From Verrucomicrobia bacterium LP2A (lineage in GTDB: Bacteria; Verrucomicrobiota; Verrucomicrobiia; Methylacidiphilales; Methylacidiphilaceae), in the NCBI GenBank assembly GCA_000526255.1, contig JAFS01000001.1, forward strand, positions 806,001-870,000: a DNA stretch of 64,000 nt, in the 5' to 3' direction. The number at the start of each line of letters is the position of its first letter. Within the stretch, counting starts at the first letter, position 1. The notes below the pieces were generated by a model. That model worked only from the letters and a program-made list of their open reading frames with translations. It was not told the DNA's origin and did no database searches. Both the position numbers and the translations under genes were made by a program. Shown one piece after another: positions 1,935-7,681 of this stretch.

Positions 1935-2885
1935 GTGAGGGAGTCGATCGAGGTATCCGCCATCCTTGTAACCTACAACAGCCGTCCGGTGCTGGACGGC
2001 TGCCTCCGTTCGCTTCAGGCGCAAGAGGGGATTGGGCTGGAGATTCTCGTCATCGACAACGCATCCGAGGACGGGACGGCGGATTGGCTCGCCGAGCGCT
2101 TCCCCGAGATCCGGCTCTGGAGAAATCGCGAAAACGTGGGTTTCGGAAGGGCCTGCAACCAGGGGATGCGGGAGGCGAGGGGGGAGGTGCTTCTTTTTGT
2201 GAATCCGGACCTCCGGTTCCCCGAGCCAGACGCGGTGGCGCGGCTGGCTGGCGCCTTGCGCGCCGACCCATCTTTGGGCGCTGTGGGTCCGGCCCTCTAC
2301 GAGGAGGACGGCTTGCGGCAGCCGAGCACGGCTCGGAGCTATCCGAACGAACGATGGACAAAGGGGGAGCTCGGGCCTCTGCCCGGCGAGCTTGCCGCTC
2401 TCTTGGGCGCCTGCCTCGCGCTTCGCGCGGAAACCGCCAAGTCGGTCGGGGGGTTCGATGAGGATTTCTTTCTTTATGGGGAGGACCAGGATCTCTGCCT
2501 GCGCCTTCGCCGGAAGGGGTTGCGGCTCGCCTGCCTTTCCGAGGTGCGGGCCCTGCACATCGGCCGGCACAGCGAGGAAGGGACGAGCCCACGGGAGTAT
2601 TGGCGCAAGAAGCTGCAAGGGGAATATCTCTTCTACCGCAAGCACTATGCGGCCCATTCTCTCCGTCGGATTCGGATCAGCCAATGGGTGAAGAGCTCGT
2701 GGGAGCTTTTCCTGCTTGCGCTCTGTTGGCCGATGGCCGGGAGGGCGAGCGCCTGGAAGGAGCGATGGGGCAAGTACGCCGCCATTCGGGCGGCGGCGGA
2801 GGGCAGGGGAGGGGTCGACCCGAAAGAGGGGATCGGTCCCGCCACCCATTGGGAACCGGCTGTCATGGAAGTAAATCGGGAATGA
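1935..2885 (+). CDS. Family 2 glycosyltransferase (rhamnosyltransferase-like)
   Basis: A 316-residue GT-A fold enzyme that should transfer a sugar from a nucleotide donor to a cell-surface glycan in the cytoplasm. The N-terminus VSAILVTYNS is the usual GT2 opening. It is followed by a LVIDNASEDGT motif, an NVGFGRACNQG motif typical of the rhamnosyltransferase-like branch, a VNPDLRF segment in place of the metal-binding DxD, and GGFDEDFFLYGEDQDLCLRLR, which carries the catalytic ED. The start is GTG 1935 with a poor ribosome site. It overlaps the next gene by ATGA, so the three glycosyltransferases are very likely translationally coupled. Acceptor and sugar cannot be read from the sequence. 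Confidence 0.85.
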   Translation: MRESIEVSAILVTYNSRPVLDGCLRSLQAQEGIGLEILVIDNASEDGTADWLAERFPEIRLWRNRENVGFGRACNQGMREARGEVLLFVNPDLRFPEPDAVARLAGALRADPSLGAVGPALYEEDGLRQPSTARSYPNERWTKGELGPLPGELAALLGACLALRAETAKSVGGFDEDFFLYGEDQDLCLRLRRKGLRLACLSEVRALHIGRHSEEGTSPREYWRKKLQGEYLFYRKHYAAHSLRRIRISQWVKSSWELFLLALCWPMAGRASAWKERWGKYAAIRAAAEGRGGVDPKEGIGPATHWEPAVMEVNRE

Positions 2886-3670
2886 CGCAGGACTTCCGAA
2901 AGGATTTCGATGAGCTTCTGGATCTCTTCGATTCCGGAAAGCCGTTCGCCTTTGTCCGCTACAACGATGGGGAGGCGAGCATCCTGGCCAATCAGCCGAT
3001 CGGATGCAGGCACGAGTGGCAATACCGGCCCGGAAAGGACCTTCATTTTCGCTCGTCGCTCCGGGAATCGCTCCGAGTGCAGGACGATCGCTACTTTTAC
3101 GGCCTTCCCTCTTGGGACATGAGCCCATGGATGCACGATCTGGTTCGCGGCCTCACGGTCGCGGAGCTCGGCCGCCTGACCTTCGCGGCACTCTTCGCCA
3201 ACGGGAATCACGATCGATTCCTGGAGGAGTTCGTCCCCCGACTCCGCCGCCGAGACCGGCCGATCCTCTTCGTGGGAAATGCCCGTCTCAGCCGCCAGCG
3301 GCTCGAGGAGGCCCTCGGCATCTCGGATTTCCTCCCCCTTTCGGGGGACTGCGTCCGACTCTGGAAAAGAAGGGAGCGAGAGCTCCTCGATCTTCTCGAC
3401 CTCAAGGCTTCGCTCTCCCGAGGAGCGCTTTTTCTCGTCGCGGGAGGCCCCCTCGGCAAGATCCTGATCCACGCTCTTTGGAAGGTTTCGGCGGAAAATG
3501 TCTACCTCGATATCGGGTCCGCCCTTGACCCGCTGCTTTTCGGAAAGCCGACGCGAGCCTATCATCGGGATCCCGCCAACCGGGCCGTAATCCCCTGCTG
3601 GAAGCCGGAAGGAGAATCGGCGGAGGCGTCCAAGACGACGGAACCCCATCCGGAGAAACAACCAAGCTGA
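2882..3670 (+). CDS. GT-D fold putative glycosyltransferase
   Basis: A 262-residue protein. Near the N-terminus the motif FVRYNDGE matches the R-Y/F-x-DGE signature of the GT-D glycosyltransferase family (the family of streptococcal DUF1792 domains), and spacing and length fit a single GT-D domain. The C-terminal 25 residues are hydrophilic and probably disordered. ATG 2882 overlaps the stop of the GT2 gene (ATGA), and its own stop overlaps the next ATG (TGATG), which fixes the frame and start well. Its position between two GT2 genes supports a shared surface polysaccharide or glycolipid pathway. Family assignment rests on the motif only. Confidence 0.65.
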   Translation: MTQDFRKDFDELLDLFDSGKPFAFVRYNDGEASILANQPIGCRHEWQYRPGKDLHFRSSLRESLRVQDDRYFYGLPSWDMSPWMHDLVRGLTVAELGRLTFAALFANGNHDRFLEEFVPRLRRRDRPILFVGNARLSRQRLEEALGISDFLPLSGDCVRLWKRRERELLDLLDLKASLSRGALFLVAGGPLGKILIHALWKVSAENVYLDIGSALDPLLFGKPTRAYHRDPANRAVIPCWKPEGESAEASKTTEPHPEKQPS

Positions 3671-4671
3671 TGCCCGATCCCCAAAAGCCGCGGGTCACGG
3701 TAGGAATCCCGGTCTTCAACGGCGCCCGGTTTGTCGCGCAGGCGATCGAGAGCGCTCTGGCCCAAAGCTGGCCGCCGGAGGAAGTGATCGTGGTGGACGA
3801 CGGCTCCAAGGATGAGACGCCGGAAGTCCTGGAGAAATATCGCGACCGGGTGACGATCGTGCGCCAAAGCAACCAAGGTGCCCCCGCAGCAAGAAACCGG
3901 ATCCTCTTGGATGCCCAAGGGGAGTGGATCCAGTACTTGGATGCCGACGACTACCTGAAGCCCGGGAAGATTGAGCGCCAATGGACCGAGTGTTCCAATC
4001 GGGACGCGGACGCGATCCTTTCGCCCCTGCTCGAGGAGCGGTGGGAGGGGGGGAGACCCTTGCCGGTCCGGCAACCGCCAGACGAGGGGGATCCGGACTC
4101 CATCGTCCGCTGGTTTCAACGTAAGAACCCGCAAGTAGCCGCTGGGCTTTGGCGGAAAAAGTCGCTCGTCCGCATTGGAGGATGGAACCGTTCGATTCGC
4201 TGTGCGACCGAGGACAACGATCTCTACCTGCGGTCGCTGCAGGCGGATTTCCTCTTCGCTTGGACGCCGACTGCAGGGGCGGTCTACCGGGCCGACTGGT
4301 CGCCAGGGTCGTTCTGCCATCGGAACCATGTGGAGCTTTTCCAGACCGAGCTCTCCCTGCTCGACCGGATGGCTGGATGGCTCCACGAGCGGCGGCAATG
4401 GACGGATGCACGCAGGGAAGCTGCGGCACGGGCCTACTTCCAGACGCTCCGGGAGATTGCCAAGGACGATCTGAGAGAGGCGGCACGGCTTTACGAGGAG
4501 CGGAAAAAAGGTGATCTTGTCTACCCCTGCGGGCCGAAGGCGTCGCCGACCTACCGCACGATCTTCGGACTGCTCGGCTTCGAGGGAACCGAGCGGATCT
4601 GCCGGGTGGCGACCCAGCTGCGGCCGCTGGAGCAACGTTTTCGAAACTGGAGGAGAGAGCATGCCCGGTAA
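3670..4671 (+). CDS. Family 2 glycosyltransferase
   Basis: A 333-residue GT-A enzyme. The N-terminus has VTVGIPVFNGARFVAQAIES, then a VIVVDDGSKDET nucleotide-binding motif, QSNQGAPAARN, and YLDADDYLKPGKIE with the DxDD metal site near residue 93. The later CATEDNDLYLR supplies the catalytic acid region. The C-terminal 100 residues are helical and basic. The ATG overlaps the GT-D stop. It is the last gene of the three-gene glycosyltransferase run; 113 bases separate it from the DUF4013 gene, which has its own ribosome site. Sugar specificity is unknown. Confidence 0.85.
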   Translation: MPDPQKPRVTVGIPVFNGARFVAQAIESALAQSWPPEEVIVVDDGSKDETPEVLEKYRDRVTIVRQSNQGAPAARNRILLDAQGEWIQYLDADDYLKPGKIERQWTECSNRDADAILSPLLEERWEGGRPLPVRQPPDEGDPDSIVRWFQRKNPQVAAGLWRKKSLVRIGGWNRSIRCATEDNDLYLRSLQADFLFAWTPTAGAVYRADWSPGSFCHRNHVELFQTELSLLDRMAGWLHERRQWTDARREAAARAYFQTLREIAKDDLREAARLYEERKKGDLVYPCGPKASPTYRTIFGLLGFEGTERICRVATQLRPLEQRFRNWRREHAR

Positions 4672-4784
4672 GGAAGCGCCCAACCTTGACGGAGCCGACC
4701 GTATTCGCGGCTTCGACGAACGGCTTGACGATGCGCGCGATTTGATCCCTATCTACCCGTTATTCTTTTTGAGAGGAGAGCTCC

Positions 4785-5564
4785 ATGCATCGTGCCGTTG
4801 ATCCGTCACAGGCGTCCGGCGAGAGCGCTTATTTCTCCGATATCCGCGTCGGATTTGCGAAGCTCTTTACCGACCGTTTCTGGTTTCCCAAGATCTTTCT
4901 CGGCGGCTTGCTTCTGATCAATCCGGTTCTCTTGTCGCTTGCCCCGAAGTGGGCCGGCGGGTTCGCGCAGCACAAATCTCTGTTGTTCTCCCTTCTCGCC
5001 GTCAACGTCTCCAGCTTTTGGTTCTCCTTGGGCTTTACCTACGAGGTTCTCCGCCGGGCACGCTTCGGCGGCCAGCAGCTACCCGGATGGAGCTTGCGCG
5101 TTCTCGGCCAGTACGTGCGGGAAGGGGCGGTGAAATTCGCCATCTCCCTCACGACGTTGCTCTTGCCGCTTTTCGCTTGGGTCGCCTTCTGCTACGGCCT
5201 CTTCATCCGGCTCCTAGGGCTTCCTTCTACCTTGCTCTCGCTCTTCGTTCCTCTCGGCAGCTGGCTCGTGGTTCCCTTTTGCGCCGTGGCCTGTTGCCGC
5301 TGGCTCGATGGCGCCTCGGTAGCCGCTTGCGCCCTCGATTACCGGGAAAATCTACGGATTTTTTGGAGAAAGCGAGGCGACTTCCTCATCGCTTCCGCCT
5401 TCCTGGGAGGGCTCAACGCAATCCTCATCTCCTTCTTTTATACGCTCCCTTTCGCCCTCTTTTTCGGACTCTGCCTGGTCGATACCTGGTTCGGTCCCAT
5501 TTATGCTTCTGCGGTAGAAAATCATTCCCGCGCGTTCGCCTCGGCGGGCTCACAAACTTCCTAG
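4785..5564 (+). CDS. DUF4013-like integral membrane protein
   Basis: A 259-residue protein with about six hydrophobic segments, starting with a FPKIFLGGLLLINPVLLSL helix. The sequence GGQQLPGW followed by a hydrophobic GAVKFAISLTTLLL segment resembles the DUF4013 pattern (a short G-x-LP-x-W stretch between membrane helices). No catalytic motif is visible and the family has no known biochemical role. GAGGAG lies eight bases before ATG 4785. It sits between glycosyltransferase and desulfurase-like genes with only 24 bases to the latter, so it may be co-transcribed with the genes downstream. Confidence 0.6.
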   Translation: MHRAVDPSQASGESAYFSDIRVGFAKLFTDRFWFPKIFLGGLLLINPVLLSLAPKWAGGFAQHKSLLFSLLAVNVSSFWFSLGFTYEVLRRARFGGQQLPGWSLRVLGQYVREGAVKFAISLTTLLLPLFAWVAFCYGLFIRLLGLPSTLLSLFVPLGSWLVVPFCAVACCRWLDGASVAACALDYRENLRIFWRKRGDFLIASAFLGGLNAILISFFYTLPFALFFGLCLVDTWFGPIYASAVENHSRAFASAGSQTS

Positions 5565-5588
5565 GATCCAGCCAACCGGCGACACTCC

Positions 5589-6794
5589 GTGATCTCCTTG
5601 GACTCGGCAGCGGCGGACCCGGTCCTTCCGGCGGTGCTCGAAGCGATGCTTCCCTTTTTCCGGGAGGCCGGCAATCCCGCTAGCCTCCACAGCGCCGGTG
5701 CGCGGGCGAGGGAAGCCTTGGAGCGGGCGCGGGAGGGGGTTGCGGACTTTCTGGGGGCTGCTCCCTCCGAGATCTTCTTCACCTCCGGGGGAACCGAGGC
5801 GATCAATCTCGCCATCAAAGGCTTCTACGAAGCCAACCGCAAGCGGGGCAGCCGCATCCTCTGCACCCCCGTCGAATCGGCCGCGGTGTTGCGTTCGCTC
5901 GATTGGCTGCGTGGAGAGGGGGCGGAGATCGTGCAGCTCCCCATCGACCGGGAAGGTCGTGTCGATCCCTCCGTAATCGCTGCAGCGCTCAGCCCCGAGA
6001 CCATCCTGGTCTGCGTCCAGTGGGCCAATGGCGAAACGGGCGCCATGCAGCCGATCCAGCAAATCGGGCAAATCTGCGAGGCGGCGGGGACGGCTCTCTT
6101 CTGCGACGCGACGGCGGCTGCGGGTTGGACACCGGTCGATTTCCGCAGCGTCCCGGTCGCGCTCTCCGCGGTACACTTCCGTGGGTGTGGAGGTCCCGTG
6201 GGAGTCGGTGCCCTCTACAAGCGGGAGGGAGTCGCTCTCCAGGCGCAGATTCATGGGGGACCGCAAGAGAAGGGAGTGCGCGCGGGCACGGAGAATCTTC
6301 CGGGAATCGTCGGGGCGGGCAAGGCGGCAGAGTTGGCCACCGGGACCGTGGCTGCCTCGGCATTTCGCCTGCGCTCCCTTTCGGATAAGCTCTGGCTAGC
6401 GATCCGTGCAGAGGTTCCCTCCCTCCATTGGCACGGTCCTCCTCCGGGAGAGGGGCGGCTGCCCCATCATCTAGCCTGGAGCCCCGAGGGGGTCGAAGGA
6501 GAGGCGCAGGTGCTCGCCTGCGATCTCCAGGGGGCAGCAATCGCTGCGGGTCCGAGCTGCATCAGCAAGTCGCTGCGGGGCAGCCCTGTTCTTCGGGCGA
6601 TCGGCGTTCCAGCACGGCTGATCCTCTCAGCCGTCCAGATCACGCTGCATCGGGGGACCACCGAAGCGGATCTCGATTCATTCTGCAGAATTTATTCCAA
6701 GGTCGTCGAAAGGTTGCGATCGCTCTCGCCCGCCTGGCAGATCGCGAAGGAGCGGCTGGCTTCGCCTCCCTCCGCGGACGAGGGCGGCCGGTGA
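5589..6794 (+). CDS. Cysteine desulfurase homologue lacking PLP lysine
   Basis: A 401-residue fold-type I aminotransferase of the NifS/IscS group by overall sequence: MISLDSAAADPVL start, GNPASLHSAGARARE, FTSGGTEAINLAIKG, and a C-terminal SPVLRAIG. Several normally invariant residues are changed. The S-G/A-H-K-x-Y-G-P-K-G motif holding the Schiff-base lysine reads SAVHFRGCGGPVG (residues 193-205) with no lysine. The stacking His is Ser97, the Gln after the PLP aspartate (Asp173) is Ala176, and the Arg that holds substrate carboxylate is Gln350. The active-site Cys324 in GPSCIS is retained. There is no frameshift. Normal PLP chemistry is unlikely; a pseudo-enzyme, sulfur-carrier or altered-chemistry role is inference. 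It overlaps the PAP2 gene by GTGA. Confidence 0.75.
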   Translation: MISLDSAAADPVLPAVLEAMLPFFREAGNPASLHSAGARAREALERAREGVADFLGAAPSEIFFTSGGTEAINLAIKGFYEANRKRGSRILCTPVESAAVLRSLDWLRGEGAEIVQLPIDREGRVDPSVIAAALSPETILVCVQWANGETGAMQPIQQIGQICEAAGTALFCDATAAAGWTPVDFRSVPVALSAVHFRGCGGPVGVGALYKREGVALQAQIHGGPQEKGVRAGTENLPGIVGAGKAAELATGTVAASAFRLRSLSDKLWLAIRAEVPSLHWHGPPPGEGRLPHHLAWSPEGVEGEAQVLACDLQGAAIAAGPSCISKSLRGSPVLRAIGVPARLILSAVQITLHRGTTEADLDSFCRIYSKVVERLRSLSPAWQIAKERLASPPSADEGGR

Positions 6795-7570
6795 GCGATT
6801 CGCGGAGCCCGGCGACAGCCCAGCCGGACGGAACGAGCAGGCAGACGAAGAAAAAGCGCTGGCTCCACCGGCTCGCGCTTTCCGTGGGGTTTTTGGCAGC
6901 GGGATTCTTCCTCACGTTTCCGCTCGATTTTGGCACGTATCGCGCTCTGGAGCGGATCGACCGGCCCGTCTTCCAACAGATCGCGGAGCAGTTCAGTCTC
7001 TGGGGAGACTATTTTCCCGGAAGCATCCTCGTTTCGGTTCTGTTGTTTGCCGGGGGCTGGGTGGCAAGGAGCCGCCGGGCCCGCTTGGCCGCCTTGGCAA
7101 GTTTACTTGCCGCTACCGGCGCCGGGCTGACCGTCGATGCCGGACGCTTTTCCTTGGGCCGCCCTCGGCCCTACGCCACTGCGGCTGCGGCGGCTCTCAC
7201 GATCGGGTACAGGCCGGTGCCGAGAGTCTCCTTCGGAAGAAGCCGTCCGGACAATGACCTTTTCGACGGGTTCTACGGTCCGATCGGCATCCACATGTTT
7301 CAGGGATTTCCCTCGGGCCATGCCACCTCGTCGATGGCGAGCGCCGCCGCCATCCTCCCACTGGTTCCGGAAGTGGGCCTTCCTTTGAGCCTTCTTGCCG
7401 TAGGGGTCTGCTGGTCGCGAATGGAGCTCCGGCAGCACTACCTCTCGGACGTCACCGTCGGGGCAACTTGGGGCGCACTGTGGGGGTTTTGTCTCGGCGG
7501 ACTGCTCTCTCGACGCATGACCCTTCGACCGAGAGCAGCTCCCGCCTCGCCGCCCAAAAGGGAGATTTGA
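6791..7570 (+). CDS. PAP2-family membrane phosphatase
   Basis: A 259-residue integral membrane protein with the three phosphatase motifs of the type 2 phosphatidic acid phosphatase family: RFSLGRPRP (119-127, with Arg in place of the usual first Lys), PSGH (174-177), and SRMELRQHYLSD (209-220) carrying the catalytic His216 and Asp220. Substrates in this family are lipid phosphates or undecaprenyl pyrophosphate, acting at the outer face of the inner membrane; which one applies here is not clear. GTG 6791 overlaps the previous stop (GTGA); a longer frame upstream is only the antisense-like shadow of the desulfurase homologue. A strong terminator follows at 7646. Confidence 0.8.
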   Translation: MSDSRSPATAQPDGTSRQTKKKRWLHRLALSVGFLAAGFFLTFPLDFGTYRALERIDRPVFQQIAEQFSLWGDYFPGSILVSVLLFAGGWVARSRRARLAALASLLAATGAGLTVDAGRFSLGRPRPYATAAAAALTIGYRPVPRVSFGRSRPDNDLFDGFYGPIGIHMFQGFPSGHATSSMASAAAILPLVPEVGLPLSLLAVGVCWSRMELRQHYLSDVTVGATWGALWGFCLGGLLSRRMTLRPRAAPASPPKREI

Positions 7571-7645: not shown

Positions 7646-7681
7646 AAGAGCGGCACGGTCGGTCCGTGCCGCTCTTGTTTT
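7646..7681 (+). terminator. Rho-independent terminator after the PAP2 gene
   Basis: A perfect 13-bp stem (7646-7658 with 7664-7676, arm AAGAGCGGCACGG) with a five-base loop is followed by GTTTT. It closes the plus-strand unit that begins with the glycosyltransferases and faces the 3' end of glnA. Confidence 0.8.

Follow-up and report, generated by a model that had tools for sequence, protein, structure and literature searches.

The locus and its neighbors

The window analyzed here, a 64,000-nucleotide stretch of contig JAFS01000001.1, comes from a genome of Verrucomicrobia bacterium LP2A (2.47 Mb in three contigs) that carries two pmoA-type genes and, judged by PmoA, genome size, and relatives, most likely belongs to a methanotroph of the verrucomicrobial family Methylacidiphilaceae. 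One of its genes codes for a homologue of the cysteine desulfurases IscS and NifS in which the Schiff-base lysine is missing (Table 1). Residues 3-365 of the protein match the Pfam family Aminotran_5 (PF00266, E 2.9e-50), that is, fold-type I, aminotransferase class V, and residues 3-381 match the NCBIfam NifS model TIGR03402 (E 9e-101). The bit score of the latter match (337, with a cutoff of 531) and that for the IscS model TIGR02006 (270, with a cutoff of 643) both fall short, which sets the protein apart from curated NifS and IscS proteins. Its predicted model has a pLDDT of 89.1, and its closest folds are human NFS1 (Z 51.9) and Escherichia coli IscS (Z 51), with Archaeoglobus fulgidus IscS at Z 50.8. 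The domain match, the model, and these Z scores of about 51 bear out the initial annotation in describing a full-length NifS/IscS homologue, and the open reading frame is uninterrupted, as had also been claimed.

Two further features are shared with E. coli IscS and NFS1. The loop that holds Cys324 (residues 324-328) is predicted to be disordered, with pLDDT under 50, and a C-terminal helix (residues 381-391) carries SPAWQIAKERL, in which the SP-x-W element is kept. In E. coli IscS, the Cys loop is disordered and the protein does not bind IscU when residues 376-404 are missing (PMC2854127). The SP-x-W segment is absent from the lysine-bearing NifS-type paralogues of the same genome (L002-L004).

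Table 1. Features at and around the gene for the lysine-less IscS homologue (window coordinates).
Feature	Position	Strand	Remarks
DUF4013-like membrane protein	4785..5564	+	upstream neighbor, conserved in genera g1, g2, and g3 of the family
Lysine-less IscS/NifS homologue	5589..6794	+	401 aa, GTG start, frame intact
Gly199 codon	6183..6185	+	Schiff-base lysine position (IscS Lys206), from alignments
Cys324 codon	6558..6560	+	persulfide-cysteine position (IscS Cys328), from alignment and model
C-terminal RLRSLSPAWQIAKERL segment	6711..6758	+	similar to the part of the E. coli IscS C-terminus that contacts IscU (RLRDLSPLWEMYKQ)
PAP2-family phosphatase	6791..7570	+	GTG start (inferred); downstream neighbor conserved in g1 and g2
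Intrinsic-terminator-like hairpin	7646..7676	+	13 pairs, 3' of the PAP2 gene; consensus match only

The PAP2 gene shares its first 4 bases with the 3' end of the IscS gene, and the hairpin behind it likely marks the end of an operon. A run of genes on one strand (1935-7570) comprises a glycosyltransferase-like open reading frame, a 356-aa frame with no Pfam match, a GT2 glycosyltransferase, and the DUF4013-like, IscS, and PAP2 genes. The run up to the hairpin is possibly a single operon, and its upstream genes are common only to the genus.

Pocket residues lost and kept

Alignment with E. coli IscS is free of gaps around the Schiff-base position and places Gly199 opposite Lys206 (LSAVHFRGCGGPVG in the window, LMSFSGHKIYGPKG in E. 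coli). Misalignment of this motif was ruled out by its gap-free placement in both MAFFT and HMMER alignments. His104, Gln183, and Arg354 of E. coli IscS are replaced by Ser97, Ala176, and Gln350, while Asp180 and Cys328 are kept as Asp173 and Cys324. Every residue named in the initial annotation is thus correct, although it overlooked a further loss, Asn155 to Gly148. Lys211, twelve residues downstream of Gly199, is the next lysine in the chain, and no lysine occupies the Schiff-base position in any lysine-less relative or orthologue, so an alignment with a conserved pocket lysine, which would have undone the earlier claim, was not obtained. Compared with E. coli IscS and NFS1, then, the window protein has the fold and the Cys loop without the Schiff-base lysine, His104, Asn155, Gln183, or Arg354. 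The E. coli IscS variants K206A, H104Q, and Q183E are each without desulfurase activity (PMC9978102), which means that a single such loss would already predict a desulfurase without activity. A cysteine, Cys200 (6186-6188), comes immediately after the lost lysine position in all six gene-carrying genomes of the genus and has an equivalent in no other lysine-less relative of the alignment; pairing with Cys324 or metal binding would be possible roles for it.

The same pattern holds across 129 aligned sequences, 98 with the lysine and 31 without. His104, Asn155, Asp180, Gln183, Cys328, and Arg354 are each present in all 98 lysine-bearing proteins. Of these residues, Asp180 and Cys328 alone persist in 31/31 lysine-less proteins, which retain Gln183 in only one case, Asn155 in three, and Arg354 in four. 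The residue at the lysine site itself varies among them (Gly, Gln, Arg, Ser, Thr, or Pro). This pattern bears on whether the protein might be an altered enzyme that holds PLP noncovalently, or another ligand, and catalyzes a different reaction. The invariance of Asp180, the PLP-nitrogen residue, would fit such an enzyme, as would the observation that some PLP remains on E. coli IscS K206A (PMC9978102). However, most lysine-less proteins have also lost the substrate-carboxylate Arg as well as Gln183 and Asn155, no conserved replacement set of polar residues was noticed, the lysine site is variable, and the phosphate residue Thr76 is Trp in genus g2. We consider a new catalytic activity quite unlikely.

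Orthologues and selection

Five of the six other congeneric genomes have the gene, at 72-88% identity; it was not found in the remaining one (G002), which is 83% complete. All six gene-carrying genomes of the genus have an identical HFRGCGG motif around Gly199. In the sister genus g2, the lysine is replaced by Gln (NPNQFNGPKG); a third genus, like other families of the order, has Arg there (SPHRFYGPKG). Across the order, 34/62 genomes match at 484 bits or more, the remaining copies being clearly separate at 409 bits or less, and the lysine is missing in all 27 proteins from those 34 genomes whose residues were read. Orthologues therefore share the losses, where a normal motif in them would have spoken for a single decaying copy.

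A duplicate drifting toward loss of function could account for dN/dS values within the genus that exceed those of canonical NifS in the same genomes (0.12-0.25 vs 0.08-0.18) and for the missing gene in the incomplete genome G002. Yet the orthologues are intact in six congeneric genomes despite high synonymous divergence, the neighbors are the same in a second genus, and Asp, Cys, and the HFRGCGG motif do not vary. The orthologues and the dN/dS values, which indicate purifying selection within the genus, refute decay in substance, and we regard it as highly improbable. Because the same positions are lost together (31 vs 98 proteins) and the losses are kept genus-wide at high synonymous divergence, they are not chance. 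As judged from sequence comparison, selection for an altered, nondesulfurase role, which the initial annotation had proposed, is well supported by an alignment with no pocket lysine and by orthologues with the same losses.

Spread beyond the order, and descent

A scan of named genomes turned up lysine-less homologues in Aminicenantes, Nitrospirota, Chloroflexota, Myxococcota, Thermodesulfobacteriota, and one euryarchaeote. The scan of contigs with the family profile recovered mostly canonical IscS, so the lysine was read locus by locus. A sample of 245 genomes around the Nitrospirota locus L069 added many more. The best 30 loci of this sample were read, and all retain Asp and Cys but have Gln at the lysine position, Ala or Val at Gln183, and Val at Arg354. 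These proteins and other lysine-less forms (mostly Gln) in iscR-iscS-iscU operons resemble the window protein in what is lost and what is kept. They differ in that the Nitrospirota type keeps His104 (Ser97 in the window protein) and lacks a two-residue insertion (NGPxPGPxR) found in the verrucomicrobial clade.

In a tree built with the trait columns masked, the lysine-less proteins, L093 excepted, lie on one side of a branch with SH-aLRT 97, and the verrucomicrobial clade has support of 100/100. The iscR-iscS-iscU type forms its sister clade, with SH-aLRT 97 when A. fulgidus IscS is left out. Adding that protein lowers support for the wide clade to 87/52, and its own placement outside the clade is unsupported. 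An AU test did not reject A. fulgidus IscS and the lysine-less proteins as one clade (p 0.214), and single descent with the archaeal protein is not established. The window protein belongs to a lysine-less clade that is old and kept by selection.

Several outlying copies deserve mention. L093/L254 (G450, Rokubacteria) has Leu for the lysine and Gln for His104, keeps Gln183 and Arg354, and has IscR- and IscA-like genes nearby; it was left out of the clade as a lone loss inside canonical IscS, one that is isolated and probably younger. The same genome has, at L261, an A. fulgidus-like IscS domain with Lys changed to Asp (ASNDIYGP) in an 857-aa open frame, perhaps a fusion. In the archaeal genome G448, a lysine-less copy (Arg) stands in tandem (L247/L259) with a lysine-bearing IscS in which Gln183 is changed; this genome also has a third IscS copy, lysine-less with Thr.

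Gene context and candidate roles

The gene neighborhoods of relatives point to a role in Fe-S assembly. In family f9, IscU, the lysine-less IscS, and Mrp follow one another on one strand, with IscU in 12/12 genomes and Mrp in 10/12 (the other two are cut by contig ends). The cluster ligands of this IscU are intact, and it retains the LPPVK motif together with its aspartate and three cysteines. Some genomes of families f2, f6, and f25 have the lysine-less gene followed by Mrp, an Fe-S carrier NTPase (PF10609). At the best 30 Nitrospirota loci, the lysine-less gene is flanked on the same strand by IscR in 30/30 and IscU in 29/30 cases. The window genome differs from this picture: in its family, the DUF4013-like and PAP2 genes take the place of these neighbors. 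A search with NifU_N for a true IscU found only the SufU gene, which adjoins SufS, and Mrp is encoded far from the lysine-less IscS, so the context seen in the families of the relatives is missing here.

The closest known kind is archaeal. A. fulgidus IscS (PDB 4eb5, 4eb7, and 4hvk; D199K mutant 4r5f) has no desulfurase activity, and its Cys is a ligand of the IscU cluster, the protein being described as a ligand donor rather than a sulfur donor (PMC7585200). At 39% identity to the window protein, it shares the IscS fold, keeps the Asp180 and Cys328 positions, and has lost the lysine, Gln183, and Arg354 positions (Ala and Leu at the latter two there, Ala and Gln in the window). Its lysine is replaced by Asp, in contrast to Gly in the genus of the window protein, Gln in g2, and Arg elsewhere in the order. 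It is also paired with an IscU, as are the f9 relatives, whereas the window genome has none. Methanosarcina acetivorans IscS1 belongs to the closest known kind as well; our sequence comparison covered the A. fulgidus protein only. In the open-access PMC literature we found these archaeal precedents and no description of a bacterial lysine-less IscS. The window protein is not an ordinary desulfurase but a bacterial version of a type already described in archaea.

We favor the view, with a probability of roughly 0.5, that these proteins form a nondesulfurase IscS clade whose members present a cysteine as partners in Fe-S cluster assembly or hand-over; the window protein itself is probably a nonenzymatic assembly partner. 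Mechanistically, the dimer would keep the IscS fold and its mobile Cys loop, the C-terminal helix would dock a scaffold protein, and the Cys thiol, either free or carrying sulfur from another donor, would be offered as a short-lived ligand or to accept a persulfide. Sulfur could be supplied by sulfide or by the normal desulfurases of the cell. Sulfide can feed IscU in anaerobic E. coli without IscS (PMC13015791), which makes a noncatalytic IscS thinkable. In the family of the window protein, where IscU was lost, candidate acceptors are SufU, Mrp, or something membrane-linked. Several points count against this explanation. The A. fulgidus-type mechanism is at its weakest for the window protein because its IscU is gone, and the full conservation of Asp180 means that PLP could still be bound. 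The position of A. fulgidus IscS outside the lysine-less clade in the tree, itself without support, also belongs here. Moreover, genomes with the lysine-less form usually also encode an active-type desulfurase, which leaves the need for a second, dead IscS unexplained. The host itself encodes several such paralogues, namely SufS and NifS-type proteins in which the lysine, His, Gln, and Cys are all present. In Methylacidiphilum fumariolicum SolV, the transcriptome contained transcripts of all five nifS genes, the lysine-less one not being singled out (PMC3404531).

The initial annotation had suggested a sulfur-binding pseudoenzyme, which corresponds to a sulfane-sulfur carrier: Cys324 would take a persulfide from an active desulfurase or sulfurtransferase and pass it on, without serving as a cluster ligand. 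On sequence grounds this is plausible. The Cys328 position is invariant in the lysine-less proteins, active-type desulfurases are encoded in the same genome, and DsrE-like frames, read by eye, lie near the relatives L067 and L088. However, the genes most strongly linked to the lysine-less form encode IscU and Mrp, a cluster scaffold and a carrier, rather than sulfurtransferases, and the A. fulgidus precedent is a donor of a ligand. A role confined to sulfur relay therefore seems unlikely to us, and the operon context together with A. fulgidus IscS points more precisely to a cysteine-presenting Fe-S partner.

In the IscS dimer, some active-site residues are contributed by the other chain. The lysine-less chain might accordingly join a lysine-bearing paralogue and regulate it or supply one of its Cys loops. 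Thr243, which in established IscS structures contacts PLP from the other chain of the dimer, is retained in 26/31 lysine-less proteins, and the archaeal tandem L247/L259 pairs a lysine-less with a lysine-bearing copy. Against such a partnership, the order yielded no tandem pair, and the NifS-type paralogues of the window genome (L002-L004) are distant (35-39% identity) and unlinked. We judge heterodimer formation improbable.

Returning to the cysteine-presenting partner, a fuller history can be proposed, tentatively and at lower confidence. The clade would be a separate, ancient Fe-S factor that lost PLP chemistry once and served as nonenzymatic cysteine donor in iscR-iscU operons of several bacterial phyla and some archaea. 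The methanotroph branch would then have lost IscU and taken on a different task, perhaps linked to the membrane, of which the genus-specific second cysteine next to the emptied pocket, Cys200, would be the mark.

Implications

The ISC system is generally assumed to obtain its sulfur through IscS, and cysteine desulfurase models match this family. Should the lysine-less forms be inactive, as we infer, many Nitrospirota isc operons carry an IscS unable to mobilize cysteine sulfur, the same applies to a large part of one verrucomicrobial order, and the corresponding annotations and pathway reconstructions would be wrong. The operon context of the relatives makes a noncatalytic contribution of IscS testable, with the Cys loop acting as a cluster ligand or as a persulfide relay.
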